64,000 nt of DNA. It comes from Salibacter halophilus. GTDB taxonomy: Bacteria > Bacteroidota > Bacteroidia > Flavobacteriales_G > Salibacteraceae. Positions within the stretch are counted from its first letter, which is position 1. Every line of letters begins with the position of its first letter. The notes under the pieces are model-generated. The model saw only the letters and a list, made by a program, of their open reading frames with translations, made no database searches and was not told the origin of the DNA. This document shows, in pieces, positions 3,475 to 61,100 of this stretch. The stretch lies in NCBI RefSeq assembly GCF_008806325.1, contig NZ_WACR01000013.1, positions 1-64,000 on the forward strand, read 5' to 3'. Made by a program: the position numbers and the translations under genes.

Positions 3475-3585
3475 TTACTGTTGGCGGTTATTTCGCTTTG
3501 ATTTTTAGCAATTTAGTTAGCTGTCGAGGATTCATATTTGGATCTGACCATGAGAATAAAGTGTTAATCTAAAATCTAAAATTCT

Positions 3586-5238
3586 ATGAAAAAATTAGCA
3601 GTAAGTGTTTTTGCGTTGGCTGTGAGCTTCGCAGGAATGTCACAAACATCGAATAATCTTGTCGATTTTGAGGATATTAACGGACATGCTCCGGTTGAAA
3701 CAAACTCAATCGACAATAATTACTTTTACAACAATTATTGTATCGAGTTCTTTCATGATTCAATCAATAGTTCTACTTTACCTATTTACTCACAAGTTGG
3801 AGCACCCAGAACGGCTTTTGTAGTTGCATATAATACTTATAGTACTTCAAAAGGGACCGTATGTAATAATATATCGACAGACGATGATGCTCCTATAAGT
3901 TCTCCTTTGGATGAAGGGTGTTACTTACTTACAGACGTTGATGCTGGTCCTACTCAAAATCCAAAGCCGCTTGTCATTGATTACGATGAAGATTGTACTG
4001 TTTGCGACAGTGCATCTGGTTTTTTACTTGATGTTGATGGAAACAGTAACTTTCAGGAAGGCTGGAGATTAGAGGCTTTTACAACAAACCCAAATATTGC
4101 TGAAGATACTATTTACATTCTTTCAGACGACTGGAGTAATTGTGGAGTTTGTCCTAATGTTCCAGGTTTTTCTTCACCAGGCTATTACAATTCTGCTGAC
4201 GATGGAACGGCAAAGTACTGGGAGTTTCAATTGAATAATCCAATCGATTATTTGAAATTTACATATATAGGTCACCCTGATCGTGGTGCCGGTATAGCTT
4301 TTGACGAATTTTATTTCTGTAGTATTGAACAGGATACTACACCTGAGCCGGAAATCTGTGAAGTGAATGCAGGCTTTGAACCGCAAATAGACATGTGTAA
4401 AGTTTCATTCACGAACTTTTCTGCACCCGGAAATTCATCAACTGAAATTGTCGGTTACAAATGGACTTTTGGTGATGGAACCTCATCAAATGAAGAAAAC
4501 CCTGTTTATTTCTATGATCAGCCGGGAGTATATCAGGTTTGTCTTGAAGTAACAGCCATTAAAGACGGAGAATGCTGTACTGATATTTACTGTACTGAGA
4601 TAGAAATCAACGAAGAGTGTCCTGAAGGTTGTGAAGGTGATATAGAATTAAACTATGAAAGGACAACGGTTTGTGATTCATGTGCTTATACTTTTAGTGC
4701 TAATATCTTTGGAAATTACTATCCGGTAATTGGATATCAATGGGACTTTGGAGACGGTACAACAAGCACAGAAGCGAATCCGACTCATGTTTACCAGGTT
4801 CCAGGGGCACAACAAGTTTGCTTGAGGGTTGTATTGGATAGCCCTGAAGAATGCTGCATTATCGAGAGATGTATTGAAATTCCGGGTTGTGAAGAAGTAA
4901 AAGCGATGATGAAAAATGAATCTACCGGATTCAATCCGTCAGACTCGGAAAGAGATTTCACAGATGATGTTAGAACAGGAGATAAGGTGAGCTTATTTCC
5001 AAATCCTGTAAACGATATGATGAATATAGAATTACTCGATAAAGTTGAGAGTTCAACTTTATACAATAAGCGTTATACAATATTTGATGTGCGCGGAGTT
5101 GAAGTACAATCAGGTACACTCGAAAGCACCTCAAAGAACAAAGCTATAGTTGATGTTTCTGAACTTCCTGAAGGAATGTATATCATGAAGATTAACGGCT
5201 TTGATGTAAACGAATCTTTCTCTTTCCAAAAGAAGTAA
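3586..5238 (+). CDS. Secreted PKD-domain protein with T9SS C-terminal sorting domain
   Basis: 550 residues. A signal peptide (MKKLAVSVFALAVSFAGMSQ) is followed by a ~230-residue N-terminal region, then two PKD domains around residues 255-345 and 350-435, each with the YxWxFGDGTxS...NPxHxY signature and paired cysteines. The tail (SLFPNPVNDMMNIEL to the end) is a type A T9SS sorting domain, so the protein should cross the outer membrane and be anchored at the surface or released. It shares its PKD/Cys-rich layout with the protein at 17488-19305; the pair flanks the secretion/pilus locus. One copy of the GGNTCTGACC word lies 37 bp upstream of the start. Confidence 0.85.
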   Translation: MKKLAVSVFALAVSFAGMSQTSNNLVDFEDINGHAPVETNSIDNNYFYNNYCIEFFHDSINSSTLPIYSQVGAPRTAFVVAYNTYSTSKGTVCNNISTDDDAPISSPLDEGCYLLTDVDAGPTQNPKPLVIDYDEDCTVCDSASGFLLDVDGNSNFQEGWRLEAFTTNPNIAEDTIYILSDDWSNCGVCPNVPGFSSPGYYNSADDGTAKYWEFQLNNPIDYLKFTYIGHPDRGAGIAFDEFYFCSIEQDTTPEPEICEVNAGFEPQIDMCKVSFTNFSAPGNSSTEIVGYKWTFGDGTSSNEENPVYFYDQPGVYQVCLEVTAIKDGECCTDIYCTEIEINEECPEGCEGDIELNYERTTVCDSCAYTFSANIFGNYYPVIGYQWDFGDGTTSTEANPTHVYQVPGAQQVCLRVVLDSPEECCIIERCIEIPGCEEVKAMMKNESTGFNPSDSERDFTDDVRTGDKVSLFPNPVNDMMNIELLDKVESSTLYNKRYTIFDVRGVEVQSGTLESTSKNKAIVDVSELPEGMYIMKINGFDVNESFSFQKK

Positions 5239-5267
5239 GAGATTAGTTTTACATTGATTAATTAGAA

Positions 5268-5289
5268 AAGGGCCTCCGGGCCCTTTTTT
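5268..5289 (+). terminator. Intrinsic terminator
   Basis: A GC hairpin AGGGCC-TCC-GGGCCCT followed by a T run (to about 5289), 30 bp after the PKD protein gene. It separates that gene from the downstream pilus operon. Confidence 0.8.
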
Positions 5290-5349
5290 AGTTATTAAGT
5301 GTCGTGTTTTACGCAGGTAAATTGCGAAAAACCCGACAGTGTTTAGGGT

Positions 5350-5357
5350 TATATTTG
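5350..5357 (+). promoter_or_regulatory. Bacteroidota-type -7 box for the pilus/T2SS-like operon
   Basis: TATATTTG at 5350-5357 matches TAnnTTTG exactly and lies 26 bp before the proposed ATG at 5384. A TTG occurs at 5322-5324, but the 25-bp spacing is longer than the usual ~19, so only the -7 element is convincing. Confidence 0.5.
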
Positions 5358-5383
5358 GAGCTCTTCAATATAAACACCTAATC

Positions 5384-6327: not shown

Positions 6328-7742
6328 TTGAAAGTGAATTTGAAATAAAGACAAGCTTATTGCAATTGATCTCATCAGATCAGGCTCATCAGTATGAAAT
6401 AGTCCCAAATTCAAGTGAGGGAGAAGTCTTGTCTTTGCTCACCTTTGAAAACAGCAAGGCTATTCAGAATAAAGATGAACTAGAACTTGTTTTAGGAAAG
6501 TCGATCGATTTTGAGATCATCGATAAAGAAACATTCAATCATCTTCTTCATTCCAATTACAGGAAGCGCAGGGATCAAGCGAAAGTTCTCAAAGGAAACA
6601 GCGCTGATTTTTTGGATGAATTGTTATCCCTTTCTACAGAGTTAGACAGTTCAGATATTCATATAGAGCCTTACGACAAAAGATGCCGGGTGAGGTACCG
6701 TATAGACGGTCACCTCGTGGAAAAATTCACGATCAGTAAAGTGAATTACCCTCCCTTGCTCAACAAATTGAAGATCAGATCCAATCTCGACATTTCTGAG
6801 AAAAGATTACCGCAGGACGGTCGGTTGAGATGGAAGAACCACGGCAAAGAGTTTGAATTCAGAGTATCTGTTTTGCCAACGCTCCACGGAGAAAAAGTGG
6901 TTTTACGTCTCCTTCAGAATGATGCCGATCACGTAGAGCTATTGAGGTTGGGAATGAACGATGATCAGTATAGAACATACAGCGAAATACTGAAAAGACC
7001 TAACGGAATCATCTTAATATCAGGTCCAACCGGTTCGGGGAAAACAACTACACTTTACGCCACGCTGAAAGAGCTCAACAAGATAGATCGCAACATCTGC
7101 ACAGTTGAAGATCCAATTGAATACACACTGGAAGGAATCAACCAGGTACAGGTCAAGGCCGATATCGGGTTGACATTCGCCAAAGCATTGAGGTCATTTT
7201 TGCGGCAGGACCCCGATGTGATAATGCTCGGTGAGATCCGTGATGGCGAAACAGCCCAAATGGCGATCAGGGCAGCGCTGACAGGTCACCTGGTATTGTC
7301 TACCATTCACACAAACTCTTCTATCGATACAATCAACAGGCTTATCGATATGGGGGTACCTACATTTTTATTGTCCTCAACGCTCAACCTCAGCGCAGCT
7401 CAAAGATTGCTGCGTAAGCTCTGTCCGCACTGCAAGCAAAAACAGGATGATTTGAGCCAGGTCAAACCACCTGAGGGTTATTCAGTTAAAAACGATCACG
7501 AAATATATAAACCGGTAGGGTGTCAGGAATGTCATTACACCGGCTACAGCGGTCGACTGGCCATTTATGAATTAGTTGCCATCAGCAGTGCTATATCGAC
7601 CGAAATCCGCAAGGGATCTGACCCTGATAAAATCAGGGAATCTGCTGACCATTTTAAATCACTTTCTGAACAAGCCTGGTATCACTACACACATGGGACA
7701 ACTTCTCTCGAAGAAGTATATCCACTGCTAATACAAGATTAG
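6324..7742 (+). CDS. GspE/PilB-type assembly ATPase
   Basis: 472 residues. A short N1-like domain is followed by the secretion ATPase core. Walker A GPTGSGKT is at about residue 233, the Asp/His box region (TVEDPIEY) follows, and the Walker B stretch is DPDVIMLGEIRDGET at about 295. A four-cysteine zinc knuckle (CPHCKQ near 367 and CQECHYTG near 400) is typical of GspE/PilB and absent from PilT retraction ATPases. The ATG overlaps the stop of the peptidase gene (ATGA). It powers pseudopilin polymerisation at the inner membrane. No PilT-like retraction ATPase is present in the window, which favours a T2SS-like or non-twitching machine. Confidence 0.9.
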   Translation: MIESEFEIKTSLLQLISSDQAHQYEIVPNSSEGEVLSLLTFENSKAIQNKDELELVLGKSIDFEIIDKETFNHLLHSNYRKRRDQAKVLKGNSADFLDELLSLSTELDSSDIHIEPYDKRCRVRYRIDGHLVEKFTISKVNYPPLLNKLKIRSNLDISEKRLPQDGRLRWKNHGKEFEFRVSVLPTLHGEKVVLRLLQNDADHVELLRLGMNDDQYRTYSEILKRPNGIILISGPTGSGKTTTLYATLKELNKIDRNICTVEDPIEYTLEGINQVQVKADIGLTFAKALRSFLRQDPDVIMLGEIRDGETAQMAIRAALTGHLVLSTIHTNSSIDTINRLIDMGVPTFLLSSTLNLSAAQRLLRKLCPHCKQKQDDLSQVKPPEGYSVKNDHEIYKPVGCQECHYTGYSGRLAIYELVAISSAISTEIRKGSDPDKIRESADHFKSLSEQAWYHYTHGTTSLEEVYPLLIQD

Positions 7743-7745
7743 TTT

Positions 7746-9653
7746 ATGCGAACAAACAACATCATATTAATGACAGTCTTCGGTTTCCTGATGAGCATTT
7801 TGGCTCTTCAGGCTAATGGTCAGAACCGGATTGACACCCTGCGTAACACGCTGGATTCACTTTCTGCAGAGTTTCCCGGATTGGAAGAAAAAGTAGAGTT
7901 CAGCGTGAGTGGAGCTACCATTCACGAGTTTTTGAGAGGGATAGCTGAAAACCACGATCTCAATATTTCAGTTGATCAAAATCTCGATATAAGAGTATCG
8001 AATAACTTCAATAACGCAGTCGTGAAAGACGTCCTTATTTTTCTCAGTGAAAAATATCGTCTCGATGCAGATGTTTATGGTTCTATATTAGCGTTCAGGC
8101 AATTGCCGGAAAAAGAAAAAAAGCCGGTTATCAGGGAGCCTGATGTGAACTTCAACAACCTCAATTCCTTTCTCAGTCTGGATCTCAAGAATGATACACT
8201 GGCTAAAGTGATAAGAAAAATCACAGATCAATCAGGTCTTAACGTACTCGCTGATCCCGCAGTAAAAGACAGGAGAGTCAATGCTTTCATCAAGAACAGA
8301 CCATTTGAAAATGCCATTATTATGATGGCTGAATCAAACGACTTGAAAGTTGAAAAAAAGGCAGATAACTACTTTTTCATCACAGAAAAAGGCCAGGAAG
8401 AGAACGAAAGGACTGCCCAACAAAACACTGATGAAAGAGGAGGCAGAGAAGAGATAGAACTGGTAAAAGGTCTTGAGATTGAGCTGGAAGACGACAGGCT
8501 TACAGTTGTAGCTAATGAAGTTGAGTTGAAAACAATACTCGACAAGGTTTCACAAAAATGTGAAGCCAGGTATTTTCTCTACACTGAACCTAAAGGCAAA
8601 ATCTCAACTTACATTGATAATGTTACATACGAAGATTTTGTCGAGTATTTATTGCACGGCACAGAATACACATTTAAGTTCACTGAAGGAGTCTATCTCA
8701 TCGGTAAGCGGGATCATGAGATTCTGAGAACAACAGAATTGGTGAGGTTACAAAACCGCACAATAGAGTCTATCTTAGATTTTGTTCCCCAGGAGCTAAA
8801 AAAGGGAGTAGACATAAAAGAATTTACTGAGCTAAACGGGTTGATCCTTAGTGGGTCAAGACCCAATATCAGGGAGCTTAAAACCTTTTTAGCTTCTGTC
8901 GATCAGGTTGTGCCGGTTGTTAAGATTGAAGTGATGATTGTTGATGTTACCCGTAATTCAACATTACAGGGAGGTGTTGATCTCAGGCTTGGAGGTGATG
9001 TTGTTCAACAAACATCAGGAAAACTGAGTCCCGGTATTGACATGGAACTATCCAGCACAACAATCAATCAGTTAATCAACAGCTTTAATGGATTCGGGTT
9101 TGTGAACCTGGGAAAAGTTACGCCTAATTTTTATGCAAGTATCCAGGCTCTGGAAGCAAACGGAGTACTGAAAATGCGTTCCACACCAATGCTAGCGACA
9201 CTAAACGGACATGAAGCCGATCTCAAAATCGGGAATACCGAATACTATCTTGAAGTACAAAATGACTTAGTGGGAACTCAAAATCCGGTACAGCAGCAAT
9301 CGCAAACATATAAAGCCGTAAATGCTGATCTATCGCTCAACATAAAACCGATTGTGTCAAGTGATGATAATGTTACGCTTGAAATTGAGGTTCAGCAATC
9401 AGATTTTACAGCACGGATTTCAGAAACAGCTCCACCAGGTAAAGTGACACGGAATTTTAAATCCTACATCAGGGTGAGAAACGGAGAAATGATTATGCTT
9501 GGCGGATTGGAAGAAAAATCGGTGGAACGTTCAGGAAGCGGGCTTCCATTCTTATCAAAAGTTCCGGTTTTGAAGTGGATCTTTGGCAAGCAGTCAAAGA
9601 ACAATAATAAAACGAGGTTGAATATTTTCATCAGACCTCGAGTAATCTATTAG
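7746..9653 (+). CDS. Secretin (GspD/PilQ-like outer-membrane channel)
   Basis: 635 residues with an N-terminal signal peptide (cleavage near ANGQNRID). There are several periplasmic STN/N-type modules (about residues 50-110, 140-200 and 250-320). The C-terminal secretin domain (about 390-635) contains the conserved VEVMIVDV-like strand, STPMLATLNGHEA and a terminal VPVLKWIFG...RLNIFIRPRVI. It should form the multimeric channel for the machine. I see no C-terminal S-domain for a pilotin. The gene follows the ATPase gene by 3 bp and is followed 7 bp later by the GspL/PilM-like gene. Copies of the GGNTCTGACC word lie near its start (7818-7827) and in the end of the ATPase gene (7613-7622). Confidence 0.9.
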   Translation: MRTNNIILMTVFGFLMSILALQANGQNRIDTLRNTLDSLSAEFPGLEEKVEFSVSGATIHEFLRGIAENHDLNISVDQNLDIRVSNNFNNAVVKDVLIFLSEKYRLDADVYGSILAFRQLPEKEKKPVIREPDVNFNNLNSFLSLDLKNDTLAKVIRKITDQSGLNVLADPAVKDRRVNAFIKNRPFENAIIMMAESNDLKVEKKADNYFFITEKGQEENERTAQQNTDERGGREEIELVKGLEIELEDDRLTVVANEVELKTILDKVSQKCEARYFLYTEPKGKISTYIDNVTYEDFVEYLLHGTEYTFKFTEGVYLIGKRDHEILRTTELVRLQNRTIESILDFVPQELKKGVDIKEFTELNGLILSGSRPNIRELKTFLASVDQVVPVVKIEVMIVDVTRNSTLQGGVDLRLGGDVVQQTSGKLSPGIDMELSSTTINQLINSFNGFGFVNLGKVTPNFYASIQALEANGVLKMRSTPMLATLNGHEADLKIGNTEYYLEVQNDLVGTQNPVQQQSQTYKAVNADLSLNIKPIVSSDDNVTLEIEVQQSDFTARISETAPPGKVTRNFKSYIRVRNGEMIMLGGLEEKSVERSGSGLPFLSKVPVLKWIFGKQSKNNNKTRLNIFIRPRVIY

Positions 9654-9660
9654 TGTTGGT

Positions 9661-10839: not shown

Positions 10840-11342
10840 ATTTGAATTCGCAGCAGAAATATTATTTACTGATAGCGGGAAGCATACTACTGCTGATCCT
10901 GATTTATCCGTTGGCGATTTCTAAAACTGTTGCAGTTAGCTCGTCAATCGATAAACTGGAAAAGCGGAAAACGGAGTTGGCCAGCCTCAAGTCAAAAGAA
11001 AATGAGTTGCTCCGGATGCAATCCCGCCTCAAGGATACGGCTACCATCGGTTCTGACCGTAACTCTATATTGACTTATATTTCCATGAAAGGAGAGAAGT
11101 TGCCGGGATTGGAAGTTGCTCAAATTCCTGAAGTTCACTTTTACTCGAGTGATGACCTGAATATTGAAACGAATGTTTTTGTGCTGGAAGGACCGTTTAA
11201 GAGTCATTTGGGAATTTTAGACAGCCTGTATTTCAACGGAAAAATTTCACCTAAAAGTGTGCACCTGTACAAACAAAGAAACTTTAAAAAGCGAAAAAAT
11301 GAGCTTTACTGTAAACTGTATTTTCAAAGAGTTAAGGATTGA
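10836..11342 (+). CDS. GspM/PilO-like inner-membrane protein
   Basis: 168 residues. One N-terminal helix (YYLLIAGSILLLILIYPLAI) is followed by a coiled coil (SSIDKLEKRKTELASLKSKENELLRMQSRL) and a small alpha/beta periplasmic domain, the layout of PilO and GspM. The ATG overlaps the end of the GspL/PilM-like gene by 4 bp (ATGA). The lipoprotein gene that follows starts about 44 bp before its stop. Function inferred from architecture and position. Confidence 0.65.
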   Translation: MNLNSQQKYYLLIAGSILLLILIYPLAISKTVAVSSSIDKLEKRKTELASLKSKENELLRMQSRLKDTATIGSDRNSILTYISMKGEKLPGLEVAQIPEVHFYSSDDLNIETNVFVLEGPFKSHLGILDSLYFNGKISPKSVHLYKQRNFKKRKNELYCKLYFQRVKD

Positions 11343-21110: not shown

Positions 21111-22181
21111 ATGAAGAAAGTATTAATAAGCGCTACAATAATTACAGCAACAATAGTTGCTTGTAACTCTGGTTCTGACCAAAAAGAAAGCGGAAAAGAA
21201 GAAAAAGCGAAGACGGAAACGAAAAAGAAGGAAGAAGCAGATCCGGTAGCTAAACAGGCTAAAGCTTACTTCAAGCAATTGCCTAAACCAGCTTCATTTG
21301 ATAGACCAATAGCTAAACTCGGTAAAAAACTCTACTACGAAACAGATGTGAGTCTGTCGGGGGATATGAGTTGTAATTCTTGCCACATGCTAGATAATTA
21401 TGGAGTGGATAACGAGCCAACTTCTCCCGGTCATGATGGTACGCGAGGAGAGCGAAATAGTCCAAGTGTTTACAATGCTTATTTCCATATCGCACAATTT
21501 TGGGACGGTAGAGCGGCAGATTTAAAAGAGCAGGCAAAAGGTCCGGTCCTCAACCCAATTGAAATGGGGATGAAGTCTAAAACGGATGTTGAAAGTGTAC
21601 TTGGCGACAATGATGAGTATAAAAAGATGTTTGCTGAAGCTTTTCCTGACGACAAAAAACCGATCAACTTCGATAATATGGCTGAAGCTATTGCAGAGTT
21701 TGAAAAGACTCTCTCTACTCCGGCTCCTTTTGATGATTATCTCGGTGGAAAAAGTGATGCTTTGAGCAGCGCACAAAAAGAAGGACTTCAAACTTTCATC
21801 GAAACCGGTTGTACAACTTGTCACATGGGACCGGGGCTTGGCGGTCAGATGTATCAAAAATTCGGATTAGTTGAAGGTCCGTACTGGGAATACACCGGAT
21901 CAGAGCACAAAGATGAAGGTCGTTTTGATGTTACTGGAAACGAAGGTGATAAATATTTCTTCAAAGTTCCATCACTCCGTAACGTTCACAAAACTGCTCC
22001 ATATTTCCACGATGGAAGCGTTGCTGATCTTAACGAAGCGATTAAGATCATGGGAAAAACACAACTCGGTAAAGACTTAACTGAAAAACAGGTAGCCAGC
22101 ATTTCAACTTTCCTCAAATCGTTGACTGGTGAAATTCCTGAGCACGCTTTACAGTCAGAACCGGCAACCGCTTCAATGTAA
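21111..22181 (+). CDS. Di-heme cytochrome c peroxidase (CcpA/MauG family), lipoprotein
   Basis: 356 residues. A signal sequence with lipobox-like IVACNSG is followed by a Lys/Glu-rich linker (residues ~25-50). Two heme-c motifs are present: CNSCH near residue 88 and CTTCH near residue 235, each within the expected CcP context (ERNSPSVYNAYFHIAQFWDGRA; FKVPSLRNVHKTAPYFHDGS). It should reduce hydrogen peroxide in the periplasm using electrons from cytochrome c. The start ATG is preceded by a TATTTTTG -7 box at 21085-21092. Monocistronic, ended by a strong terminator. Confidence 0.9.
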   Translation: MKKVLISATIITATIVACNSGSDQKESGKEEKAKTETKKKEEADPVAKQAKAYFKQLPKPASFDRPIAKLGKKLYYETDVSLSGDMSCNSCHMLDNYGVDNEPTSPGHDGTRGERNSPSVYNAYFHIAQFWDGRAADLKEQAKGPVLNPIEMGMKSKTDVESVLGDNDEYKKMFAEAFPDDKKPINFDNMAEAIAEFEKTLSTPAPFDDYLGGKSDALSSAQKEGLQTFIETGCTTCHMGPGLGGQMYQKFGLVEGPYWEYTGSEHKDEGRFDVTGNEGDKYFFKVPSLRNVHKTAPYFHDGSVADLNEAIKIMGKTQLGKDLTEKQVASISTFLKSLTGEIPEHALQSEPATASM

Positions 22182-42557: not shown

Positions 42558-45995
<3,438 letters not shown>

Positions 45996-46893: not shown

Positions 46894-48850
46894 CAGCTTC
46901 CATTTCATCGAGCTCATTCTGTAAAGTCTCCCATTCGTGCATGTATTGCTCGAGTTTTTTGGTGAGCTCACCGTGTTCAAAAAAAGTATCTTTTGAATGC
47001 TCCTGATCGTAAAAATCGGGGGCATTCATTTTTTCTTCCAACTCGGCAATTTTATCTTCAGTCTGCGAAACTTTTTTCTCCTTGTTATTGACCGCTTTTT
47101 TCAATTTTCTGATCTCTTTTTCGCGTTCCTTACGCTCCTCATGAGATTCTTTCTGCTTCTTTTTAGCAGTCGATTTCTTTTGCTTTTTCTCCTTCTGTTT
47201 TTGGTCAGATCCACCTTGTTCAAACCCGCGGAAATCCTCAACCTGGTGGTGATCTAAAAACTCTTTGATATCGCCCAGGTGTTCTTTGATTTTTTGATCC
47301 TTGAACTCAAACGTTTTATTGGTCAGATCCTGGAGGAAGTCACGGTCGTGAGATACGAGAATCAACGTTCCGTCAAAATCCTGTAGAGCTTGTTTTAAAA
47401 CTGCCTTACTGTCCATATCGAGGTGGTTCGTGGGCTCATCGAGAATGAGTAAATTACTCGGGTGAAGGAGTAATTTGGCCAGAGCTAACCTTGACTTTTC
47501 ACCTCCAGAAAGCACTTTCACACGCTTGTCCATATCCGCGTCTCCAAAGAGGAAAGCACCTAACAGCGACCTGATGTGTGTAACATTTCGCCAGTCACCG
47601 GTAGCTTCATCGTCAATTGTGTCGAAGACTTTCTTTTCTGGGTCGAGCTGCCCTTCCTGGATCTGAGCGTAATAACCGATCTTTACTTTGTGTCCCAACT
47701 CGAGTTCCCCCTCGTGTTCAAGACCTTCAGCGATGATTTTAACCAGAGTTGATTTTCCCTGTCCGTTTTGTCCCACAAATGCTACACGATCGCCACGTTC
47801 CAGTTCAAAGTCCAGACCTTTAAACACCGTTTTGTTTTCGTATTCTTTACCAATGTCTTTCCCTTTCATCGCGATTTTACCACTGTGCGGAGCGGGAGGG
47901 AAGTTGAACTGAATAGAGGCCGTATCGAATTGATCGGTCTCGATTTCATCTAACTTTTCGAGCTGTTTGATCTTGGACTGAACCTGCTTGGCTTTGTTGG
48001 CCTGGGCTCTGAATCGCTCGATAAAACGTTCTTGCTGCTCGATGAACTTATCCTGATTGCGTTTGGCATTCAATTGTTGTTCTAGTCGTTCTTCTCGTTG
48101 AATCACATACTTTGAATACGGAACGTTGTAATCGTAAATTCTGCCGGCTACAATTTCAATCGTGCGGTTTGTGACGCTGTCTAAAAACATGCGGTCGTGA
48201 GAGATCATCAAAATTGACCCCGAGTAATTTTTGAGGAACTGCTCCAGCCATAGAATTGCCTCGATATCGAGGTGGTTTGTAGGCTCATCGAGAAGGAGAA
48301 GAGTCGGCCTTTTGATGAGCAGCTTGGCGAGCTCGATTCGCATTTGCCAGCCACCACTGAGTTCACTTACAGATTTTTGAAACTCTGAAGGCTTAAAACC
48401 GAGTCCTTTCAGAACCCTTTCAGCTTCACTCTCCACTTTTCCCGGATCGAGGAGGTGAAGTCGTTCGTGCTTTTCGCTCAGCTTTTGAATGAGATCAGAA
48501 TAACTTTCAGATTCATAATCGGTGCGGTTTTCGAGTTGTTTGTTGATTTCTTCTATTTCCCTTTCCAGCGAATGGACTTCCTCAAATACACTTAGCGTTT
48601 CAGCCATGATCGATTTTTGACTGGAAACTTCGAGTTCCTGTGGAAGATAACCGAGTGTGTCGTCTTCAGATAGCGCAACTGAACCGCTGTCCGGTTCCTG
48701 GATGTTCATAATGACTTTGAGGAGAGTGGATTTCCCTACACCATTTTTCCCTGTTAAACCGATGCGGTCTTTAGGGAGTATTTTAAAGGAAATGTCTTCA
48801 AAAAGCTGGTGTCCGCTAAACGAAACAGAAATGTTGTTGATTCCGATCAT
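46880..48850 (-). CDS. ABC-F family ATPase (Uup/YheS-like)
   Basis: 656 residues, no membrane helix. Two ABC domains: GLTGKNGVGKSTLLK with LSGGWQMRIELAKLL, and FVGQNGQGKSTLVKI with LSGGEKSRLALAKLL. Both are followed by Walker B LLLLDEPTNHLD or LLILDEPTNHLD. The inter-domain linker (about 235-320) is long and charged, as in ABC-F translation factors. The C-terminal coiled coil (about 545-650) is very Lys/Glu-rich. It probably acts on ribosomes rather than in transport. Confidence 0.9.
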   Translation of the reverse strand: MIGINNISVSFSGHQLFEDISFKILPKDRIGLTGKNGVGKSTLLKVIMNIQEPDSGSVALSEDDTLGYLPQELEVSSQKSIMAETLSVFEEVHSLEREIEEINKQLENRTDYESESYSDLIQKLSEKHERLHLLDPGKVESEAERVLKGLGFKPSEFQKSVSELSGGWQMRIELAKLLIKRPTLLLLDEPTNHLDIEAILWLEQFLKNYSGSILMISHDRMFLDSVTNRTIEIVAGRIYDYNVPYSKYVIQREERLEQQLNAKRNQDKFIEQQERFIERFRAQANKAKQVQSKIKQLEKLDEIETDQFDTASIQFNFPPAPHSGKIAMKGKDIGKEYENKTVFKGLDFELERGDRVAFVGQNGQGKSTLVKIIAEGLEHEGELELGHKVKIGYYAQIQEGQLDPEKKVFDTIDDEATGDWRNVTHIRSLLGAFLFGDADMDKRVKVLSGGEKSRLALAKLLLHPSNLLILDEPTNHLDMDSKAVLKQALQDFDGTLILVSHDRDFLQDLTNKTFEFKDQKIKEHLGDIKEFLDHHQVEDFRGFEQGGSDQKQKEKKQKKSTAKKKQKESHEERKEREKEIRKLKKAVNNKEKKVSQTEDKIAELEEKMNAPDFYDQEHSKDTFFEHGELTKKLEQYMHEWETLQNELDEMEAVNQD

Positions 48851-48913: not shown

Positions 48914-50041
48914 TCATGCTTTCTCTGTTAACGGAACAAACTCTGTAACCTCTAAACCGTAGCCTACCATTCCTGTGCGTTTTTTAGGATGGTTAGACAT
49001 GAGCTTCATTTTTTGAACCCCAAGATTGTTGAGGATTTGAGCTCCCACACCGTAATCGCGCGGATCCATTTTCATCTTTTGCAGTTTAGCATCAACAGCA
49101 TCGATTCCTTCTTTACGCTGTTTGCGATTCAGGATAGTGTTACTGTTTTCCTGCTGCATGTAAATGACTACACCTTTATCGGCATTTTCTATCATGGAAA
49201 GCGCTGCGTAGATTTCAGGTCCGGCTGAGATTTGAGTCGATTTCAAAATATCTCCGCGCAGATAGGAAGAGTGTACGCGAACCAGTACTTCTTCTCCTTT
49301 TTCCCATATTCCTTTTGTAACTGCCACATGTCGTTCACCTGTAGTGGTTTGGTTGAAAACATGGAGTTGAAATTTATCGCCATTGTGATCGAGCGTTGTG
49401 GAAAATACTTTCTCGATAAGCGATTCATTTTCCATCCTGTACGCAATTAGGTCTTCGATGGAAATGATCTTTAAATCGAATTTATCGGCAATGTCAAAGA
49501 GTTGTGGAAGCCTGGCCATGGTGCCGTCTTCATTCATGATTTCCACGATAACTCCGGCCGGTTTTAGTCCGGCCAAACGTGCCAAGTCAATAGAAGCTTC
49601 AGTATGACCGGTTCTGCGGAGCACACCACCGTTTTTGGCTTTTAGCGGGAAAATGTGCCCGGGACGGTTAAAATCTGTCGGTTTGGTTGATTTGTCGACA
49701 AGGGCTCTGACCGTATTTGCGCGATCGTGCGCAGAAATACCGGTTGTATTTCCGGCTCCGTTGAAGTCGATCGAAACAGTAAAAGCCGTTTCGTGCGGAT
49801 CTGTATTCTTGCCCACCATGAGCTCCAAATTCAGCTCTTTTGCTCGTGTTTCAGTAATGGGCGTGCAGATCAATCCGCGACCATGGGTAGCCATAAAATT
49901 GATCATTTCAGGAGTCGCCATTTCGGCTGCAGCCACAAAATCACCTTCATTTTCGCGGTCTTCATCATCAACGACAATGACAATTTTTCCCTGTTTGATA
50001 TCTTCAAGAGCTTCTTCTATCTTATTTAATTTATCGCGCAT
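48914..50041 (-). CDS. ribB: 3,4-dihydroxy-2-butanone-4-phosphate synthase fused to a degenerate GTP cyclohydrolase II domain (RibB-RibX-like)
   Basis: 375 residues. The RibB half (1-200) is intact: IVVDDEDRENEGDFV, MATHGRGLIC and RRTGHTEASIDLARLAG. The RibA-like half (about 205-375) keeps the fold (RVHSSYLRGD, DPRDYGVGAQILNNLGV, MVGYGLEVTEFVPL). It has lost the three zinc cysteines (the CLTGD Cys is Tyr; the CDC motif reads ISA) and the catalytic loop (here MQQENSNTIL). Only the DHBP synthase reaction is expected. Such hybrids with an inactive second half have been described as RibBX. Confidence 0.9.
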   Translation of the reverse strand: MRDKLNKIEEALEDIKQGKIVIVVDDEDRENEGDFVAAAEMATPEMINFMATHGRGLICTPITETRAKELNLELMVGKNTDPHETAFTVSIDFNGAGNTTGISAHDRANTVRALVDKSTKPTDFNRPGHIFPLKAKNGGVLRRTGHTEASIDLARLAGLKPAGVIVEIMNEDGTMARLPQLFDIADKFDLKIISIEDLIAYRMENESLIEKVFSTTLDHNGDKFQLHVFNQTTTGERHVAVTKGIWEKGEEVLVRVHSSYLRGDILKSTQISAGPEIYAALSMIENADKGVVIYMQQENSNTILNRKQRKEGIDAVDAKLQKMKMDPRDYGVGAQILNNLGVQKMKLMSNHPKKRTGMVGYGLEVTEFVPLTEKA

Positions 50042-50055
50042 CTAACTATGTTTCG

Positions 50056-51234
50056 TTATGCAATTACTCCGGAACCAATCAACTCGTCACCGTTGTACCA
50101 GGCCGCAAACTGGCCTGGCGTAATGCCGCGTTGAGGTTCGTCAAATTCAATGTAAATACCTTCTTCTGTCTTATGAACAGTTCCGGCTTGTAAAGGTTGG
50201 CGGTAGCGGATGCGAATATCGAACTTTTGGCTCTGACCAGCATTCATTTTCAAATCCTCGCGAACCCAGTGAGTATCACTGTTTGGAATGAAAAGAGCCG
50301 ATCGGTAGAGCCCCGGGTGATTTTCACCTTGCCCGGTATAAATAATGTTGTTTTCAGTATCCGTTTCAATCACAAAAAGCGGCTCAGGCGTTCCACCTAT
50401 GCCGAGACCTTTTCGCTGGCCGATTGTAAAAAAATGTGCTCCGTTGTGCTCTCCAACCACATTGCCCATTTCAGCAGTGTGAGCGAAGGGAGTAGCCATT
50501 TTTTCAAGGTCACGGTCAGAGCCGTTTTTAGCGTAAATCCCGGCATCTTTCGGAATTTCCACGACCTTGCCGACTTTGGGTTTGAGTTGTTGCTGAAGAA
50601 AATCAGGCAACTTCACCTTTCCGATGAAACACAACCCCTGGGAGTCTTTTTTGTCAGCCGTTACAAGACCGGCTTCCTCTGCAATTTTACGAACCTCAGG
50701 CTTTTGTAAATGCCCTATTGGAAATAAAGCCTTGCTCAGCTGATCCTGATTGAGTTGGCAGAGGAAGTAGCTCTGATCTTTATTTTTATCAGCCCCGGCA
50801 AGCAGTTTGTAAACTTTTTTGCCGTCAATTTCTTCAACACCTTTTTGACAATAATGACCGGTTGCCACATAATCGGCACCCAGTTTCATCGCAGCATCTA
50901 GGAAAATGTCAAACTTGATTTCGCGGTTGCACAGTACATCGGGATTGGGTGTGCGTCCACGTTGATATTCAGCAAACATGTAGTCGACAATTCGTTCTTT
51001 GTACTGTTCGCTGAGATCGATCGTTTGAAAAGGAATTCCGAGTGACTCAGCAACCTGCAGCGCATCATTGCTATCGTCAACCCAAGGGCATTCATCACTG
51101 ATTGTCACAGAGGTGTCGTGCCAGTTTTTCATGAACATCCCGATGACTTCATAGCCCTGTTGCTGAAGAAGATAAGCTGTTACGCTTGAATCAACTCCGC
51201 CCGATAAACCAACTACAACTCTTCCTTTTTCCAT
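50056..51234 (-). CDS. mnmA: tRNA 2-thiouridylase MnmA
   Basis: The start at 51234 ([17 protein letters not shown]) is supported by an exact TACCTTTG box at 51244-51251, which would put the transcript start at or just before this ATG; the TTG at 51246 would then be untranscribed. 392 residues: PP-loop SGGVDSSV, catalytic Cys in [12 protein letters not shown] and second Cys in [11 protein letters not shown], then the C-terminal tRNA-binding barrel ([11 protein letters not shown]). It thiolates U34 of tRNA Lys/Glu/Gln. Confidence 0.96.
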
Positions 51235-51962: not shown

Positions 51963-51968
51963 GACTTT

Positions 51969-52937
51969 TTATTTTTTGAGTCCTATTTCTTTTAAGCGTT
52001 CGTCCAGGTATTCACCGGCAGTGATATCGTCAAATTGTTTTGGATGTTCTTCATCAATACATGAATCGAGACAATCAAGCTTCATGTCACTCTTTGGGTG
52101 AAGGAAGAACGGGATTGAGTAGCGCGAAGTGTGCCACTTATCTTTGGGCGGATTCACAACGCGATGAGTAGTACTTCTCAGTTTCGCATTTGTGAGGCGT
52201 TGGAGCATATCACCAACATTGACCACGATGTGATCGGGAAGAGCTGTAACATCAACGTATTCACCTTTCCTGTTCAGAACCTGAAGTCCGTCAGCTGAAG
52301 CACCAATCAGCAATGTTATGAGGTTGATATCTTCGTGCTCACCGGCTCTGACCGCATCCTCAGGAGCGTTTTCATCGATGGGAGGGTAGTGAATAGCACG
52401 TAAAATGCTATTTCCTCTAAGCACTTTGTCATCGAAATAATTTTCATCCAGATCGAGGTAAATTGCGATAGCACGCAACATTTCAACACCTGTTGCTTCT
52501 AGCGATTGATAAGCTTTTTTACCGACTAAATTGAATCGTGGAATCTCTTCAACGTAAATGTTTTCAGGGTATTCTTCCCTTAGCGGATCATCATCTTCAA
52601 CGTATTGACCAAATTGCCAAAATTCTTTGAGGTCGCCTGTGTTGCGGTTTTTGGCGTGTTCTTTACCAAATGATGTGTAACCGCGTTGACCGGCTAACTC
52701 TGCGTGTTCATATTTCAACTTTACATCCTCATCGAGGTCAAAAAAGCACTTAACTTCTCTGTAAAGTTTTTCGATGAGTTCATCGTCAATTCCGTGGTTT
52801 TTCACAGCCACAAAACCTATTGTTTCGTAAGCTTCACCTAGTTTCTTGACGAAGTTTTGTTTCTTTTCACTATCGCCTGATGTGAAATCAGCTAAATCTA
52901 CACTGGGTATTCCTTGCATATTGTTATCTGCCGACAT
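51969..52937 (-). CDS. Isopenicillin N synthase-like Fe(II)/2-oxoglutarate oxygenase
   Basis: 322 residues. The DIOX_N domain (VDLADFTSGDSEKKQNFVKKLGEAYETIGFVAVKNHG) precedes the 2OG-FeII domain with ligands HEDINLITLL (HxD) and STTHRVVNPP (distal His), and the RYSIPFF Arg-x-Ser for 2-oxoglutarate. Such bacterial members hydroxylate small molecules; the substrate is not evident from neighbours. Probably co-transcribed with the YceI gene. Confidence 0.85.
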   Translation of the reverse strand: MSADNNMQGIPSVDLADFTSGDSEKKQNFVKKLGEAYETIGFVAVKNHGIDDELIEKLYREVKCFFDLDEDVKLKYEHAELAGQRGYTSFGKEHAKNRNTGDLKEFWQFGQYVEDDDPLREEYPENIYVEEIPRFNLVGKKAYQSLEATGVEMLRAIAIYLDLDENYFDDKVLRGNSILRAIHYPPIDENAPEDAVRAGEHEDINLITLLIGASADGLQVLNRKGEYVDVTALPDHIVVNVGDMLQRLTNAKLRSTTHRVVNPPKDKWHTSRYSIPFFLHPKSDMKLDCLDSCIDEEHPKQFDDITAGEYLDERLKEIGLKK

Positions 52938-53631: not shown

Positions 53632-53710
53632 CAATATTTATTCCAAAATAGTTTGTACAAGAACTAAATTTTACTTTTTTTGTTTAACACTATATAATAT
53701 CAAGAAATAA

Positions 53711-54100: not shown

Positions 54101-54106
54101 TTCTCA

Positions 54107-55567
54107 ATGCACTGGATAGACCTAACGATTTTCATTACATATATGGTTGTCATGCTCGGTGTGGGCTTCTTCTTCATGAGGAGGAACAAATCCAAAGACG
54201 ACTATTATGTTGGCGGTAGGTCTATGGGAAGTTGGCATATTGGCCTTTCAGTCGTTGCTACCGATGTTGGTGGCGGATTTTCGATCGGACTGGGAGGCCT
54301 TGGTTTTGTTATGGGGATCAGTGGTTCGTGGATGTTGTTCACGGGACTGATAGGAGCCTGGTTGAGCGGTGCTTTTCTAATTCCCAAAGTAGCCAAATTA
54401 TCGAAAAAGGTCAATTTACTTACATTCCCGCAAATATTCAATCAATTTTACGGACCTGAGGTAGCGCTATTAGCCGGACTCATTTCTGCTATTGGCTACC
54501 TCGGTTTTACCAGCTCGCAAATTTTAGCTGGAGCTAAACTGGCTTCTGCTTCATTTGTGGATTTGGGTCTGACCCAGGCGCTCATCATCATGGGTGTTAT
54601 TGCGGTTGTTTATACCGTACTGGGCGGACTAAAAGCTGTTATTTACACCGATACAGTTCAGTGGGCGATTCTGATGATAGGTCTTATTTTCATCGGGTTG
54701 CCCTTGGCTTACGATGCTATTGGCGGGCTTTCAGCAATTAAAGCTTCAGTGGGACCCGAATTTTTGTCGCTCACCAATATAACGTGGAGTGAGCTAGTCA
54801 ATTGGGCAATTACGATTATTCCCATTTGGTTTGTCGGGATGACGCTTTACCAACGGATGTACGCGGCAAAAGGCGAAAAACAAGCTAAAAAAGCGTGGTT
54901 CATTGCAGGGATTTTGGAATGGCCCATAATGGCGATGATGGGTGTACTTCTAGGGCTTTTTGCTCGTGTGGCTTTCGATCAGGGAATGTTTGGTGAACTC
55001 GGTTTTCCGGTAGGATCTGACCTCGACTCTGAAATGGGTTTGCCGCTATTACTCAGAACCGTGCTCCCAGTTGGATTGATGGGAATCATGATGTCTGCAT
55101 ATTTCTCAGCGATCATGAGTACAGCAGATTCCTGCCTGATGGCTGCATCGGGAAATATCGTGTCAGACTTACTCTCTAAAATTGTCAACCTAAAAGAAAA
55201 TCAGGTTGTGCGAATTTCACAGGTCATTACATTGATCATTGGAGCAGCAGCAATTTTGATTGCACTCAATTTACAGAATGTACTCGATCTCATGTTGCTT
55301 TCATACTCTTTTATGGTATCGGGGCTTTTAGTACCGGTTATTGGTGCTTTCTTCTGGAAAAAGCGAAGTACAATTGGTGCTGTTACAGCAATGTTAGGAG
55401 GTGGATTGACAACGGTTTTCCTCAATGCTTTTGAAGTGAAACTTCCATTTGAGCTAGATGCCAATTTCTTTGGGATTCTTGCCTCAGCGGTACTTTTCGT
55501 ATCTTTTAGCAACTTATTTCCCAATAAAAGAACTGTAATTGAAGAAGAAATAGAAACTAAAACATAA
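54107..55567 (+). CDS. Sodium:solute symporter (SSS family)
   Basis: 486 residues with about 13 membrane helices. SSF signatures include YYVGGRSMGSWHIGLSVVATDVGGG near the N-terminus, VYTVLGGLKAVIYTDTVQ, and SAYFSAIMSTADSCLMAASGN with the sodium-site serines. The solute cannot be told from sequence. Downstream genes (GNAT, M20 amidohydrolase, two amino-acid racemases) make an amino acid or acylated amino acid a reasonable guess. Confidence 0.9.
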   Translation: MHWIDLTIFITYMVVMLGVGFFFMRRNKSKDDYYVGGRSMGSWHIGLSVVATDVGGGFSIGLGGLGFVMGISGSWMLFTGLIGAWLSGAFLIPKVAKLSKKVNLLTFPQIFNQFYGPEVALLAGLISAIGYLGFTSSQILAGAKLASASFVDLGLTQALIIMGVIAVVYTVLGGLKAVIYTDTVQWAILMIGLIFIGLPLAYDAIGGLSAIKASVGPEFLSLTNITWSELVNWAITIIPIWFVGMTLYQRMYAAKGEKQAKKAWFIAGILEWPIMAMMGVLLGLFARVAFDQGMFGELGFPVGSDLDSEMGLPLLLRTVLPVGLMGIMMSAYFSAIMSTADSCLMAASGNIVSDLLSKIVNLKENQVVRISQVITLIIGAAAILIALNLQNVLDLMLLSYSFMVSGLLVPVIGAFFWKKRSTIGAVTAMLGGGLTTVFLNAFEVKLPFELDANFFGILASAVLFVSFSNLFPNKRTVIEEEIETKT

Positions 55568-55571
55568 ACTC

Positions 55572-56006: not shown

Positions 56007-56008
56007 GC

Positions 56009-57157
56009 ATGGAAATTGAGCAAGATTTAATCCAGGAAATCACCGATTTTAGAAGACAACTCCATCGTGAGCCGGAGGTTTCCGGAAATGAATACAACAC
56101 TTCGAAAAAAATTGAAACCAAGCTGAAATCGCTGGATCCTGATGAAATTGTCCATCTCGGAGATACGGGATTAGCTGCAATTTTTAAAGGTAAAGAGGAA
56201 GGTCCGTCAATTCTTTTCAGATGTGAGCTTGATGCTCTTCCAATACATGAAATCAATCAGTTTGATCATCGGTCAGAGCGCGATGGCGTTTCGCATAAGT
56301 GCGGACACGATGGCCACATGGCCATTATGGCAGCATTGGCAACTCTTGTATCCAAAAAAAGACCTAAAAAAGGTCGGGTGATTTTGCTCTATCAACCGGC
56401 TGAGGAAGATGGAAGAGGAGCTCGCTCTGTGATTGAAGATTCAAATTTCTCTAAAATTGAACCGGATTACGTTTATGCGCTCCACAATTTACCGGGATTT
56501 CCAAAAGGACAGGTTGCAGTTAAAAACGGAACATTTACGGCTGCAGCAAAGAGTATGATCTCGAAGTGGAAAGGTAAAACCTCTCATGCTGCTGAACCCG
56601 AAAAAGGCCTTAATCCGGCATATCCAATAGCTCAGGTTCTGACCGAAAGTGAAAATGTGGTGGTCAAAGATCCCACACACGAAAAATTCAGGCTCATAAC
56701 ACCAATTCATATTAACCTGGGGGAAAAAGCTTATGGTGTATCAGCCGGTTACGGAGAGCTTCACCTCACTTTCAGATCCTTTTCAAACGAGCTCATGGAT
56801 CAGTTGACGAATGATATGGTGGATCTGACCGAAAAGGCTTCAAAAGAATTTCACATTCCGGTTGATATTTCGTGGACAGAGGTTTTCAGCGCCAACCAAA
56901 ATGCGCCTGAAGCAGTCGATAAAGTGCGAAAAAGTGCGCACGATGCAGGAATAGATTTAAAAGAACTCGACACACCATTCAAATGGGGAGAGGACTTTGG
57001 TTTGTTCACTGAAAAATATGAGGGTGCTATGTTTGGTGTTGGCTCAGGAGAAGATTGCCCGGCATTGCACAACCCTGATTATGATTTCCCCGATGAAATT
57101 ATTGAGCCGGCTGTTAAAACTTTTTACGGGATTCTAAATCAGCACTTAAACGAATAA
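56009..57157 (+). CDS. M20D-family amidohydrolase
   Basis: 382 residues. Metal and catalytic positions are visible: FRRQLHREPEVSGNE, LFRCELDALPI (Asp), HKCGHDGHMAIM (His), QPAEEDGRGA (Glu-Glu) and YALHNLPGFPKGQV (His). The dimerisation domain contains KTSHAAEPEKGLNP. M20D enzymes hydrolyse N-acyl amino acids, hippurate or indole-conjugates. It sits between the GNAT and alanine racemase genes with 1-2 bp gaps. Confidence 0.88.
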   Translation: MEIEQDLIQEITDFRRQLHREPEVSGNEYNTSKKIETKLKSLDPDEIVHLGDTGLAAIFKGKEEGPSILFRCELDALPIHEINQFDHRSERDGVSHKCGHDGHMAIMAALATLVSKKRPKKGRVILLYQPAEEDGRGARSVIEDSNFSKIEPDYVYALHNLPGFPKGQVAVKNGTFTAAAKSMISKWKGKTSHAAEPEKGLNPAYPIAQVLTESENVVVKDPTHEKFRLITPIHINLGEKAYGVSAGYGELHLTFRSFSNELMDQLTNDMVDLTEKASKEFHIPVDISWTEVFSANQNAPEAVDKVRKSAHDAGIDLKELDTPFKWGEDFGLFTEKYEGAMFGVGSGEDCPALHNPDYDFPDEIIEPAVKTFYGILNQHLNE

Positions 57158-57158
57158 T

Positions 57159-58310: not shown

Positions 58311-58331
58311 ACCCCTAAGAAAGGATTACTT

Positions 58332-59402: not shown

Positions 59403-59947
59403 TGTATTTTGTAGGTGTTGAATATTTTAAAATGATTCTTGAAACTTTAACGTCTATAGGTACTCTTGGAGCAGTCTTAATAGGAGGCTTTGCAATTTAC
59501 TATTCAAATAAAAATAGTAGACGCGAAATTAGAACCCATAAGCTCGAAGAGATTTTTGAACTGTCTGAATCTTTAAGTATAAATTACTATGTATTTAAAG
59601 ATTTATATTTTGATATCGAAGAATTGAAAAACAGGAATAATATTGAAATCCAAACTTATAATGATTATTATAAGATTCGTGATAAGAGATTGACTTTAAA
59701 TGATAAAAACAAAATCCAATCAGATTTAATAAGATTTGAAGTACTAGCAAGGTGCTATACTAGAGGCTATCTCTTGAAAGAATTATTAGATTATAAAGAT
59801 CTAATGCACACTTTTTTAGAGTATGTCTTTGTAGGGGGAAGTTTGAGAAAAGAAATAAAATGGAAAGATGGATTCCCTAACTTTAAAGATTTTCATCAAC
59901 ACCAAAATGTTCTTAGAGAAGCTCTTATCAATCAAATCAATAATTAA
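59402..59947 (+). CDS. Membrane-anchored orphan protein
   Basis: 181 residues from ATG 59402; ATG 59432 (MILETLTSIGTLGAV) is an alternative. One N-terminal membrane helix (TSIGTLGAVLIGGFAIYYS) is followed by a charged helical cytoplasmic domain rich in Asn, Tyr and Lys (NNIEIQTYNDYYKIRDKRL). The layout resembles small phage-defence or accessory membrane proteins of unknown function. The stretch is clearly more AT-rich than its neighbours and has a poor C-terminal match to any family I know, suggesting recent acquisition. Confidence 0.6.
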   Translation: MYFVGVEYFKMILETLTSIGTLGAVLIGGFAIYYSNKNSRREIRTHKLEEIFELSESLSINYYVFKDLYFDIEELKNRNNIEIQTYNDYYKIRDKRLTLNDKNKIQSDLIRFEVLARCYTRGYLLKELLDYKDLMHTFLEYVFVGGSLRKEIKWKDGFPNFKDFHQHQNVLREALINQINN

Positions 59948-60034
59948 TAATCATTGTTTTTTTATTGTTTTTCACAAAACATCCTAAAATAAAACCGCTA
60001 ATGTAAAAGCTGCTGTTTGAGCTTGCGAGTAGTG

Positions 60035-60042
60035 TATATTTG
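60035..60042 (+). promoter_or_regulatory. -7 box of the LytS-LytTR operon
   Basis: TATATTTG matches TAnnTTTG exactly and ends only 5 bp before the ATG at 60048, so the transcript would begin at or within a base or two of the start codon (leaderless). Confidence 0.5.
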
Positions 60043-60047
60043 GCAAA

Positions 60048-61100
60048 ATGCAAGAAATGCGCAAGACATACATTGCACTGCAACTCGGTGGTTGGTTGCT
60101 CTACATCATCCTGGCCATTGTGACCAACATGTTGCAGGGTCAGCTCGTGACAATCGCTATGCTCTTTCAATATCTCATCGCTTATTTGGTGGGAGTATTG
60201 AGCTCGCATTTATACAGGAACCTGATCATCAAACTCAGGTGGACAGAGCTTCGCCTTTTGCCTTTGATTCCACGGGTAATGGTCGGATCCGTGAGTTTTG
60301 CATTTCTGTTCCAGCTCCTTTACGTCATAGCGAACTGGCTATTCTTCGGATCTGAGAGTTACAACTTCGTAGAAATTGCGATTCAAATTCTCAATTGGAC
60401 AGTGCTTTTTGTGTTGTGGAGTGTGATCTATTTTGCTTTTCACTTCTTCCAACGCTACAAAAGCGAAGAGATCAAGAACCTCACATGGGAGGCACACAAG
60501 AATGAAGTGGAGTTGAACAAACTCAAGTCACAACTCAATCCACACTTCATTTTCAATTCTATGAACACGATCAGAGCCCTCATCGATGAAGATCCAGTAA
60601 AAGCGAAGAAGTCTGTCACACAGCTTTCCAATCTTTTGCGAAACACCTTACTCATGGGACGCAAGAAAACAGTGCCTTTTTCAGAAGAATGGCAACTCGT
60701 TCAGGACTATGTGGATTTAGAGAAAAAGCGTTACGAAGAGCGGTTACATTTTGAAGCAGATATCGATCAAAGGGCAATGAAGTTTGAGGTTCCGGGAATG
60801 ATCGTGCAAACGATGGTAGAGAACTCTATCAAACACGGAATTGCTCATTTGCCTGAAGGAGGTGAAATCAAGCTCAAAGTTGAGGTGAAAGATGGCGAAC
60901 TACATGTTTGTATTGTGAATCCCGGTAAGCTGGGATCTGACCAAAAATATATAGATAAAAGGACTGGTTTTGGAGTGATCAATACCAGGCAGCGACTGAA
61001 CTTGCTTTACGGTGAAGATGCTGATTTTCAATTGAGAAACGGAGAAAATGAAACTGTAGAAACCTATATCAAAATCCCCAATAAAACCCTAAGTATATGA
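60048..61100 (+). CDS. LytS/YehU-type sensor histidine kinase
   Basis: 350 residues. Four membrane helices span residues ~10-145, then a short coiled coil. The His_kinase domain has LNPHFIFNSMNTIRALI with the phospho-accepting His166, and the HATPase has MVENSIKHGI and GFGVINTRQRL. There is no periplasmic sensor domain, so the signal is probably sensed in or near the membrane. Paired with the LytTR regulator that overlaps its stop by 4 bp. Confidence 0.93.
   Translation: MQEMRKTYIALQLGGWLLYIILAIVTNMLQGQLVTIAMLFQYLIAYLVGVLSSHLYRNLIIKLRWTELRLLPLIPRVMVGSVSFAFLFQLLYVIANWLFFGSESYNFVEIAIQILNWTVLFVLWSVIYFAFHFFQRYKSEEIKNLTWEAHKNEVELNKLKSQLNPHFIFNSMNTIRALIDEDPVKAKKSVTQLSNLLRNTLLMGRKKTVPFSEEWQLVQDYVDLEKKRYEERLHFEADIDQRAMKFEVPGMIVQTMVENSIKHGIAHLPEGGEIKLKVEVKDGELHVCIVNPGKLGSDQKYIDKRTGFGVINTRQRLNLLYGEDADFQLRNGENETVETYIKIPNKTLSI

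Follow-up and report, generated by a model that had tools for sequence, protein, structure and literature searches.

A genus-restricted, dispersed DNA word in Salibacter resembles a DNA uptake sequence

Uptake sequences have so far been described in two proteobacterial families, both of which use type IV pili. The uptake signal sequence (USS; AAGTGCGGT) of the Pasteurellaceae consists of a 9-bp core with A+T-rich segments on its 3' side, is present in hundreds to 1760 copies among the tabulated species, near one per kb, and occurs in clade-specific types (Hin, Apl) that differ inside the core (PMC1626085). Haemophilus influenzae takes up DNA via type IV pili (PMC7965970), and the predicted USS receptor is a minor pilin (PMC12616744). 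The DNA uptake sequence (DUS) dialects of the Neisseriaceae are 10-12-mers that follow phylogeny, with about two to six thousand copies for those quoted, and every dialect retains CTG and a later A (PMC3630211); PMC1626085 describes the Neisseria DUS as having no flanking motif. Here we analyzed a 64-kb stretch of the Salibacter halophilus genome (positions 1 to 64,000 of contig NZ_WACR01000013.1, hereafter the window) in which one word, GGNTCTGACC, recurs on both strands. We propose that this word, in the form GGHTCTGACC plus an A-rich tail, is probably the DNA uptake sequence, that is, the self-recognition tag, of the genus.

In Riemerella, a periplasmic protein with three HHH motifs is essential for transformation, and pilus homologs were not detected (PMC8459023). 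R. columbina favors its own DNA, yet its tag was not established, and the tabled candidates are poly-A-like k-mers (PMC7965970). Among the matches listed in a search of the open-access literature, these tentative k-mers were the only Bacteroidota uptake words, which is weak evidence of absence. Another short word, the cyanobacterial HIP1 (GCGATCGC), is strongly over-represented and lineage-limited (PMC4390886).

The window holds 31 exact copies of GGNTCTGACC, 20 on the plus and 11 on the minus strand, where dinucleotide shuffling gives a chance expectation of 0.32 (maximum of 2 among 100 shuffles). These totals are identical to those of the original prediction, which was made from the window alone, and its coordinates stand except for three (7613 is 7614, 32588 is 32587 and 38170 is 38171). 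Its description of the sites also held when we went back to their contexts: position 2 is A, C or T in 30 of 31 copies, the base after the word is a purine in 28 of 31, and a single copy, at 3540, lies outside our crude open reading frame (ORF) calls. The exact matches in the window are as follows.

3540..3549, plus strand, copy GGATCTGACC of GGNTCTGACC, between ORFs
7614..7623, plus strand, copy GGATCTGACC
7818..7827, minus strand, copy GGTTCTGACC
11049..11058, plus strand, copy GGTTCTGACC
21171..21180, plus strand, copy GGTTCTGACC
22703..22712, plus strand, copy GGATCTGACC
32105..32114, minus strand, copy GGATCTGACC
32587..32596, plus strand, copy GGCTCTGACC
33938..33947, minus strand, copy GGTTCTGACC
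36934..36943, minus strand, copy GGATCTGACC, inverted pair with the 36945 copy
36945..36954, plus strand, copy GGCTCTGACC, inverted pair with the 36934 copy
38171..38180, minus strand, copy GGCTCTGACC
38683..38692, plus strand, copy GGTTCTGACC
41403..41412, plus strand, copy GGTTCTGACC
41546..41555, minus strand, copy GGTTCTGACC
42900..42909, minus strand, copy GGCTCTGACC
43092..43101, plus strand, copy GGCTCTGACC
43890..43899, plus strand, copy GGTTCTGACC
45491..45500, plus strand, copy GGCTCTGACC
45883..45892, minus strand, copy GGTTCTGACC
47203..47212, minus strand, copy GGATCTGACC
47321..47330, minus strand, copy GGATCTGACC
49703..49712, plus strand, copy GGCTCTGACC
50229..50238, plus strand, copy GGCTCTGACC
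50514..50523, minus strand, copy GGCTCTGACC
52344..52353, plus strand, copy GGCTCTGACC
54565..54574, plus strand, copy GGGTCTGACC, with the disfavored G in position 2
55013..55022, plus strand, copy GGATCTGACC
56635..56644, plus strand, copy GGTTCTGACC
56821..56830, plus strand, copy GGATCTGACC
60933..60942, plus strand, copy GGATCTGACC

The excess extends across the genome. In the whole assembly that holds the window (G000; 3.12 Mb [3122 kb], 32 contigs, 99.97% complete) we counted 743 and 739 copies on the two strands, 1482 in total, compared with 1 and 3 (total 4) for a control consisting of the same word read backwards. Finer analyses used an 864-kb sample of G000 draft contigs made up of the window, the adjoining 20 kb on its right side and parts of contigs 1-8. 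This sample contained 420 copies versus Markov expectations of 2.65 (order 3), 3.99 (order 4) and 32.8 (order 5), the last inflated by the enrichment of 6-mers that belong to the word itself. The original prediction named a frequency near the Markov expectation as an outcome that would count against it, and the observed count lies far above. Its over-representation was therefore real, and its 60-fold estimate compares with an excess of about 100- to 160-fold when shuffling or Markov orders 3-4 set the expectation, and of 13-fold with order 5. The strict word reaches a density of 0.49/kb in G000, and the relaxed form GGHTCTGA approaches 1/kb (816 occurrences in 776 kb of ORFs).

Among close relatives, the word was restricted to the genus. 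We counted copies in 60 genomes, G000 and 59 relatives, which include the two other members of the genus, G001 and G002. G001 (2.3 Mb, 83% complete) contained 486 copies and G002 (2.8 Mb, 94% complete) contained 824, while the 57 relatives outside the genus had 1 to 38, most of them close to the reversed-word control. At the order level (42 genomes), the 39 outside the genus had at most 28 copies. Across 296 genomes of the phylum including G000, only two outside the genus exceeded 100 copies, G065 (163; control 15) and G060 (146; control 29), both members of family f31. A de novo word search that covered 48-80 kb from each of ten further genera of the family found no comparable word, with a top 9-mer z of at most 13.4 (13.4 in G004, 12.3 in G012, 12.1 in G006 from a simple repeat, and 11.8 in G005); the top z in 80 kb each was 27.6 for G000 and 34.3 for G002. 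In the close relatives to which the original prediction pointed as a check, the word is abundant in both other genus members and near control in most others. It is a real, genus-specific signal at the DNA level.

Alignment of the 420 G000 sites defined a core of GGHTCTGACC, in which position 2 is A, C or T and G makes up just 2%, followed on the 3' side by R (94%), W (88%), any base, and A (72%). Mild A-richness reaches to about +20, flanks farther out are near background, and the 5' side is slightly pyrimidine-rich (T 48% at -3). In the window plus 400 kb (464 kb), 223 of 425 GGHTCTGA sites were not followed by CC and still retained the flank (R 80%, W 77%, A 54%), so core and flank form one motif of which CC is the looser part. 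Perfect copies exceeded one-mismatch copies in G000 (410 vs 378) and in G002 (166 vs 88), whereas a 749-kb sample from ten other genera had 1 vs 62. Mutational decay of the word should give the opposite balance.

The sister lineage has a distinct but related form of the word, that is, a dialect. In G000, position 2 can be A, C or T, and position 10 is preferably G or A. In 171 G002 sites (596 kb), position 2 is T in 75%, C in 22% and A in 3%, positions 10 to 13 are A in 78, 81, 71 and 89%, and G makes up 47% at -6. The 13 copies in 61 kb of G001 match the G002 dialect.

Other repeated words were seen in the same genomes. A second, weaker dispersed word, TGAGTCCGC, occurs 37 times in the 864-kb G000 sample (L101-L120, L219-L238 and the window), against 1 for its reversed control and 5.5 expected at order 4. 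It belongs to a family TGAKTCYG that has TCYG in common with the main word, and TGAGTCCG was found in G002 as well (38 in 596 kb). In 83 kb of G001, with about 1 kb double-counted (L131-L140, L142-L152), there were further repeated words around GGAATGAGCAAACGG and AACCGTCTGCA, which are probably ordinary repeats.

Within the 864-kb sample, copies were spread with little regard to gene boundaries, at 0.489/kb within the crude ORFs and 0.454/kb between them; 33 of the 420 sites fell outside ORF calls, one of these in the window. Genic copies comprised 224 sense and 163 antisense sites and occupied all five stop-free frames (126, 98, 78, 54 and 31), as the original prediction had read from the window. 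The within-gene orientation bias (p 0.002) has a counterpart in established uptake sequences, for which a gene-orientation bias is likewise reported (PMC2346458). Spacing was random (coefficient of variation 1.0). Nine of 411 intervals separated neighbors by <60 bp, and all nine of these pairs were inverted (p 0.004); terminator-like inverted pairs were looked for by eye alone, without a terminator scan, and none were seen. Frequent inverted pairs at terminators, a common, disputed trait of uptake sequences, are not a feature of this word.

The copies also turn over. Of 22 G000 copies in 68 kb alignable to G002 (70% identity), one was kept exactly and three were one base off, compared with 102 of 2168 control 10-mers kept (4.7%), and G002 holds just three copies in the same aligned stretch. 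Copies thus come and go between species, and strongly conserved DNA holds fewer of them. By base composition, the A+T-richest fifth of genes carried 0.143/kb and the two G+C-richest fifths 0.61-0.70/kb, a roughly five-fold drop where composition predicts about 2.4-fold by our own arithmetic.

Polarity bears on two other explanations. Relative to GC skew, 217 of the 420 copies fell on one strand class (p 0.53), so this sample (864 of 3122 kb) shows no replication polarity. The word could bind a protein of the nucleoid, of segregation or of division control that only this genus has, and genus restriction with even spread would suit a genus-specific DNA-binding protein of this kind. KOPS-type words are polar, however, and sites of the parS, matS, SlmA or Noc type are palindromic or regional. 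Our word is asymmetric, randomly spaced and unpolarized across the 864 kb, with nothing of the strong leading-strand skew that marks FtsK-orienting (KOPS-type) words; its positions are kept no more than those of control words, and copies are scarce in A+T-rich genes. We consider this explanation unlikely. We consider it quite unlikely that the word is instead a Chi-like hotspot of recombination that RecBCD or AddAB would recognize while degrading DNA. It is abundant, non-palindromic, dispersed and on both strands, all of which would suit Chi, but E. coli Chi is biased to the leading strand, and the Salibacter word shows no polarity. Counts in the other genera sampled from the family and the order are also at or near control, and Chi words are not known to combine an A-rich flank with a species dialect.

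Word-free DNA offered another angle. Six word-free intervals of at least 10 kb occur in the 864-kb sample, versus 2.6 expected from an exponential by our own arithmetic. Four of the six have a foreign look: two hold cassette arrays, a third is a type I restriction island, and a fourth carries an ORF6N gene together with a single attC-like arm (L228, around 11182). The arrays (L104, about 3500-11500; L110, about 6600-14000) consist of small ORFs that all point the same way, separated by attC-like elements identified by eye, and may be integron-type gene cassettes. The restriction-modification island (L114, 13018-19961) has Pfam matches to HsdM, a PLD-family nuclease and an AAA ATPase, and encodes a protein that looks HsdS-like on visual inspection. 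The fifth gap encodes very large proteins (3118 and 1845 amino acids), and a 1762-amino-acid piece of the latter had no Pfam match. The sixth lies in the window itself, at 11.0-21.2 kb. A pattern for the attC-like 3' arm occurred five times in the 864 kb, always within three of the word-free gaps; matches to a looser attC pattern were scattered.

A genus-specific DNA methyltransferase or defense system that targets the word and marks it as 'self' would likewise leave foreign islands word-free. Restriction targets are usually avoided rather than enriched, and targets of type I, II or III systems do not resemble an asymmetric 10-bp core flanked by a graded A-rich stretch. A modification target is therefore, in our judgment, very unlikely.

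For an uptake sequence, the genome would need a route for incoming DNA. ComEC is encoded in G000 just to the right of the window (contig 13, domain match at 75,909; a 683-amino-acid ORF), and was found in 57 of the 60 genomes, G002 among them. DprA was found in G000 and G002 and, as a fragment, in G001. On contig 11, G000 encodes a 339-amino-acid ComEA-like protein that combines three HHH matches with a hydrophobic segment at its N terminus, and G002 has a 348-amino-acid frame with three HHH matches on contig 7. The window itself carries an operon (5384-15880) that resembles a type II secretion system (T2SS) or type IV pilus. It encodes prepilin peptidase-like, GspF-like and secretin proteins, a GspE/PilB ATPase and a protein with a sub-threshold bactofilin match, with minor pilins on the opposite strand, and begins with the following gene.

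5384-5827, pilin, first of the operon, matching PF16732 (ComP_DUS) at 28.7 bits, cut-off 27.3

This operon could be the uptake machine and its first pilin the receptor. The pilin scores just above the ComP_DUS cut-off, and ATPase, secretin, GspF-like protein and minor pilins adjoin it. The operon holds G000's sole T2SSE match above cut-off. Its distribution, however, does not follow that of the word. The ATPase was found in 17 and the pilin in 18 of the 60 genomes, G000 counted; both occur in nine word-less genomes from eight other genera of the family (G003-G007, G009, G014-G016) and in more distant ones, while neither had a match in G001 or G002, both of which have the word. Incompleteness of both sister drafts could account for the missing matches but is an unlikely reason. 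Nor are the G002 tags decaying (perfect to one-mismatch ratio 1.89), and a GspC-like match below the cut-off (23.5 bits against 27) leans toward a T2SS. We therefore rejected the operon and its ComP_DUS-scoring pilin as the cause of the word, present as they are without it in other genera and not found in either sister, and regard a role for them as highly improbable. A dispersed mobile repeat or a single repeated protein motif, which the original prediction had set aside in favor of a DNA-level signal and had named as another outcome that would count against it, would account for high copy number, but with a genome-wide excess on both strands, five frames, antisense copies, similar density between ORFs and background flanks beyond about +20, its probability is negligible.

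Elsewhere in the window, the left edge (2-868) is the tail of an ORF for a large protein that we take to be RHS-type. A type IX secretion system sorting domain (PF18962) was found in 2 of 10 scanned proteins.

Each of the main alternatives misses at least one feature of the word. Its anatomy, density, excess over mismatched copies, dialect, turnover and lack of polarity suggest, at the level of sequence, that it works like an uptake sequence, and we limit our claim to that. Of the functions listed in the original prediction, a DNA uptake sequence fits best, whereas the Chi-like and segregation proposals are weakened by the absence of strand bias and the restriction to one genus. Several traits of an uptake sequence are present: a non-palindromic over-represented word, clade restriction with dialects, no strand bias, and an uptake pathway, though one that is not genus-specific. 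In the mechanism we propose, a surface or periplasmic DNA receptor of the competent cell would prefer tagged double-stranded DNA, ComEC would pass one strand inward, and DprA and RecA would recombine the incoming strand. Tags would accumulate wherever a gene tolerates them because tagged alleles would be taken up and recombined more often, and they would drift with receptor preference into species dialects. The cells would accordingly have to be competent and the word would raise uptake, by way of a receptor that is presumably not a type IV pilin.

Several observations weigh against an uptake sequence. Competence, uptake and receptor are putative in the genus. The known or predicted receptors of uptake sequences are minor pilins that read the sequence as part of a type IV pilus; no such pilus was found as a shared trait of the genus, and a family search returned no T2SSE-family ATPase above cut-off in G001 or G002. 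Since these sisters have the word, the reading machine, if the tag serves all three genomes, is probably not a type IV pilus, which agrees with the non-pilus route proposed for Riemerella. With ComEC in 57 of 60 genomes, the machinery does not single out the genus, and G001 (83% complete) had no ComEC or HHH_3 match. DUF5689, the family of a Riemerella transformation protein, was rejected as a shared receptor: it passed the cut-off in both sisters (G001, 49 bits; G002, 46 bits) and was not found in G000. Mild excess over the reversed control is not unique to the genus, as in G047 (26 vs 0) and G049 (32 vs 4) of the same class, in G236 (50 vs 1) and in G065 (163 vs 15); the G060, G065 and G236 counts possibly stem from codon usage or from a weaker, related signal. 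Pairs with gaps <100 bp are rarer than chance (2.9% vs 4.9% expected), and the deficit in A+T-rich genes is partly due to composition. As for foreign DNA, six gaps versus 2.6 is a mild excess, two of the six are not obviously foreign in origin, and the gaps were chosen for word absence and inspected first, so their evidence is suggestive only. Codon typicality failed as a marker of word-poor foreign genes: the least typical fifth of genes carried 0.628/kb and the most typical fifth 0.231/kb, so this measure shows no depletion in foreign-like genes. Depletion of the word in foreign DNA is supported only in part.

With a little less assurance than the uptake sequence itself, we favor a further reading, on balance, in which the word marks a third origin of uptake sequences, outside the Neisseriaceae and Pasteurellaceae and in a lineage that apparently imports DNA independently of type IV pili, with a non-pilin receptor that reads core and tail and with dialects that have diverged. 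If true, this convergent case would show that self-tagging evolves repeatedly with different receptors, in a lineage whose DNA uptake machinery is largely uncharacterized. It would also provide a handle on the receptor, as some factor of the genus must read GGHTCTGACC plus flank and must differ between G000 and G002, and an independent system in which to test the old question of whether biased uptake together with recombination gives rise to uptake tags.

Compared with known systems, the Salibacter word resembles the Haemophilus USS in having a core with an A-rich 3' flank, a comparable density and a sister-species dialect. It differs in its unrelated core and lineage and in having one broad A-rich tail where the USS has two spaced AT segments, and, in contrast to H. 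influenzae with its type IV pili, only one of the three genus members has a T2SSE-family ATPase that scores above cut-off. The DUS dialects retain CTG and a later A, and the Salibacter core contains CTGA, perhaps by chance; unlike the Neisseria DUS, which has a known reader in the pilin ComP, it has a strong A-rich flank. The word shares with Chi, whose link is to recombination, a short, non-palindromic and dispersed form, and departs from it in lacking replication polarity, in its confinement to one genus and in its extended flank, while its asymmetry separates it from HIP1, a palindrome linked to methyltransferases. On the side of the machinery, the likeness is to Riemerella: G000 and G002 share with it ComEC, DprA and a three-HHH protein, the HHH likeness being by description and not by alignment. 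Unlike Riemerella, the Salibacter genus has DUF5689 in G001 and G002 and not, as far as found, in G000, and it has an uptake-like word.

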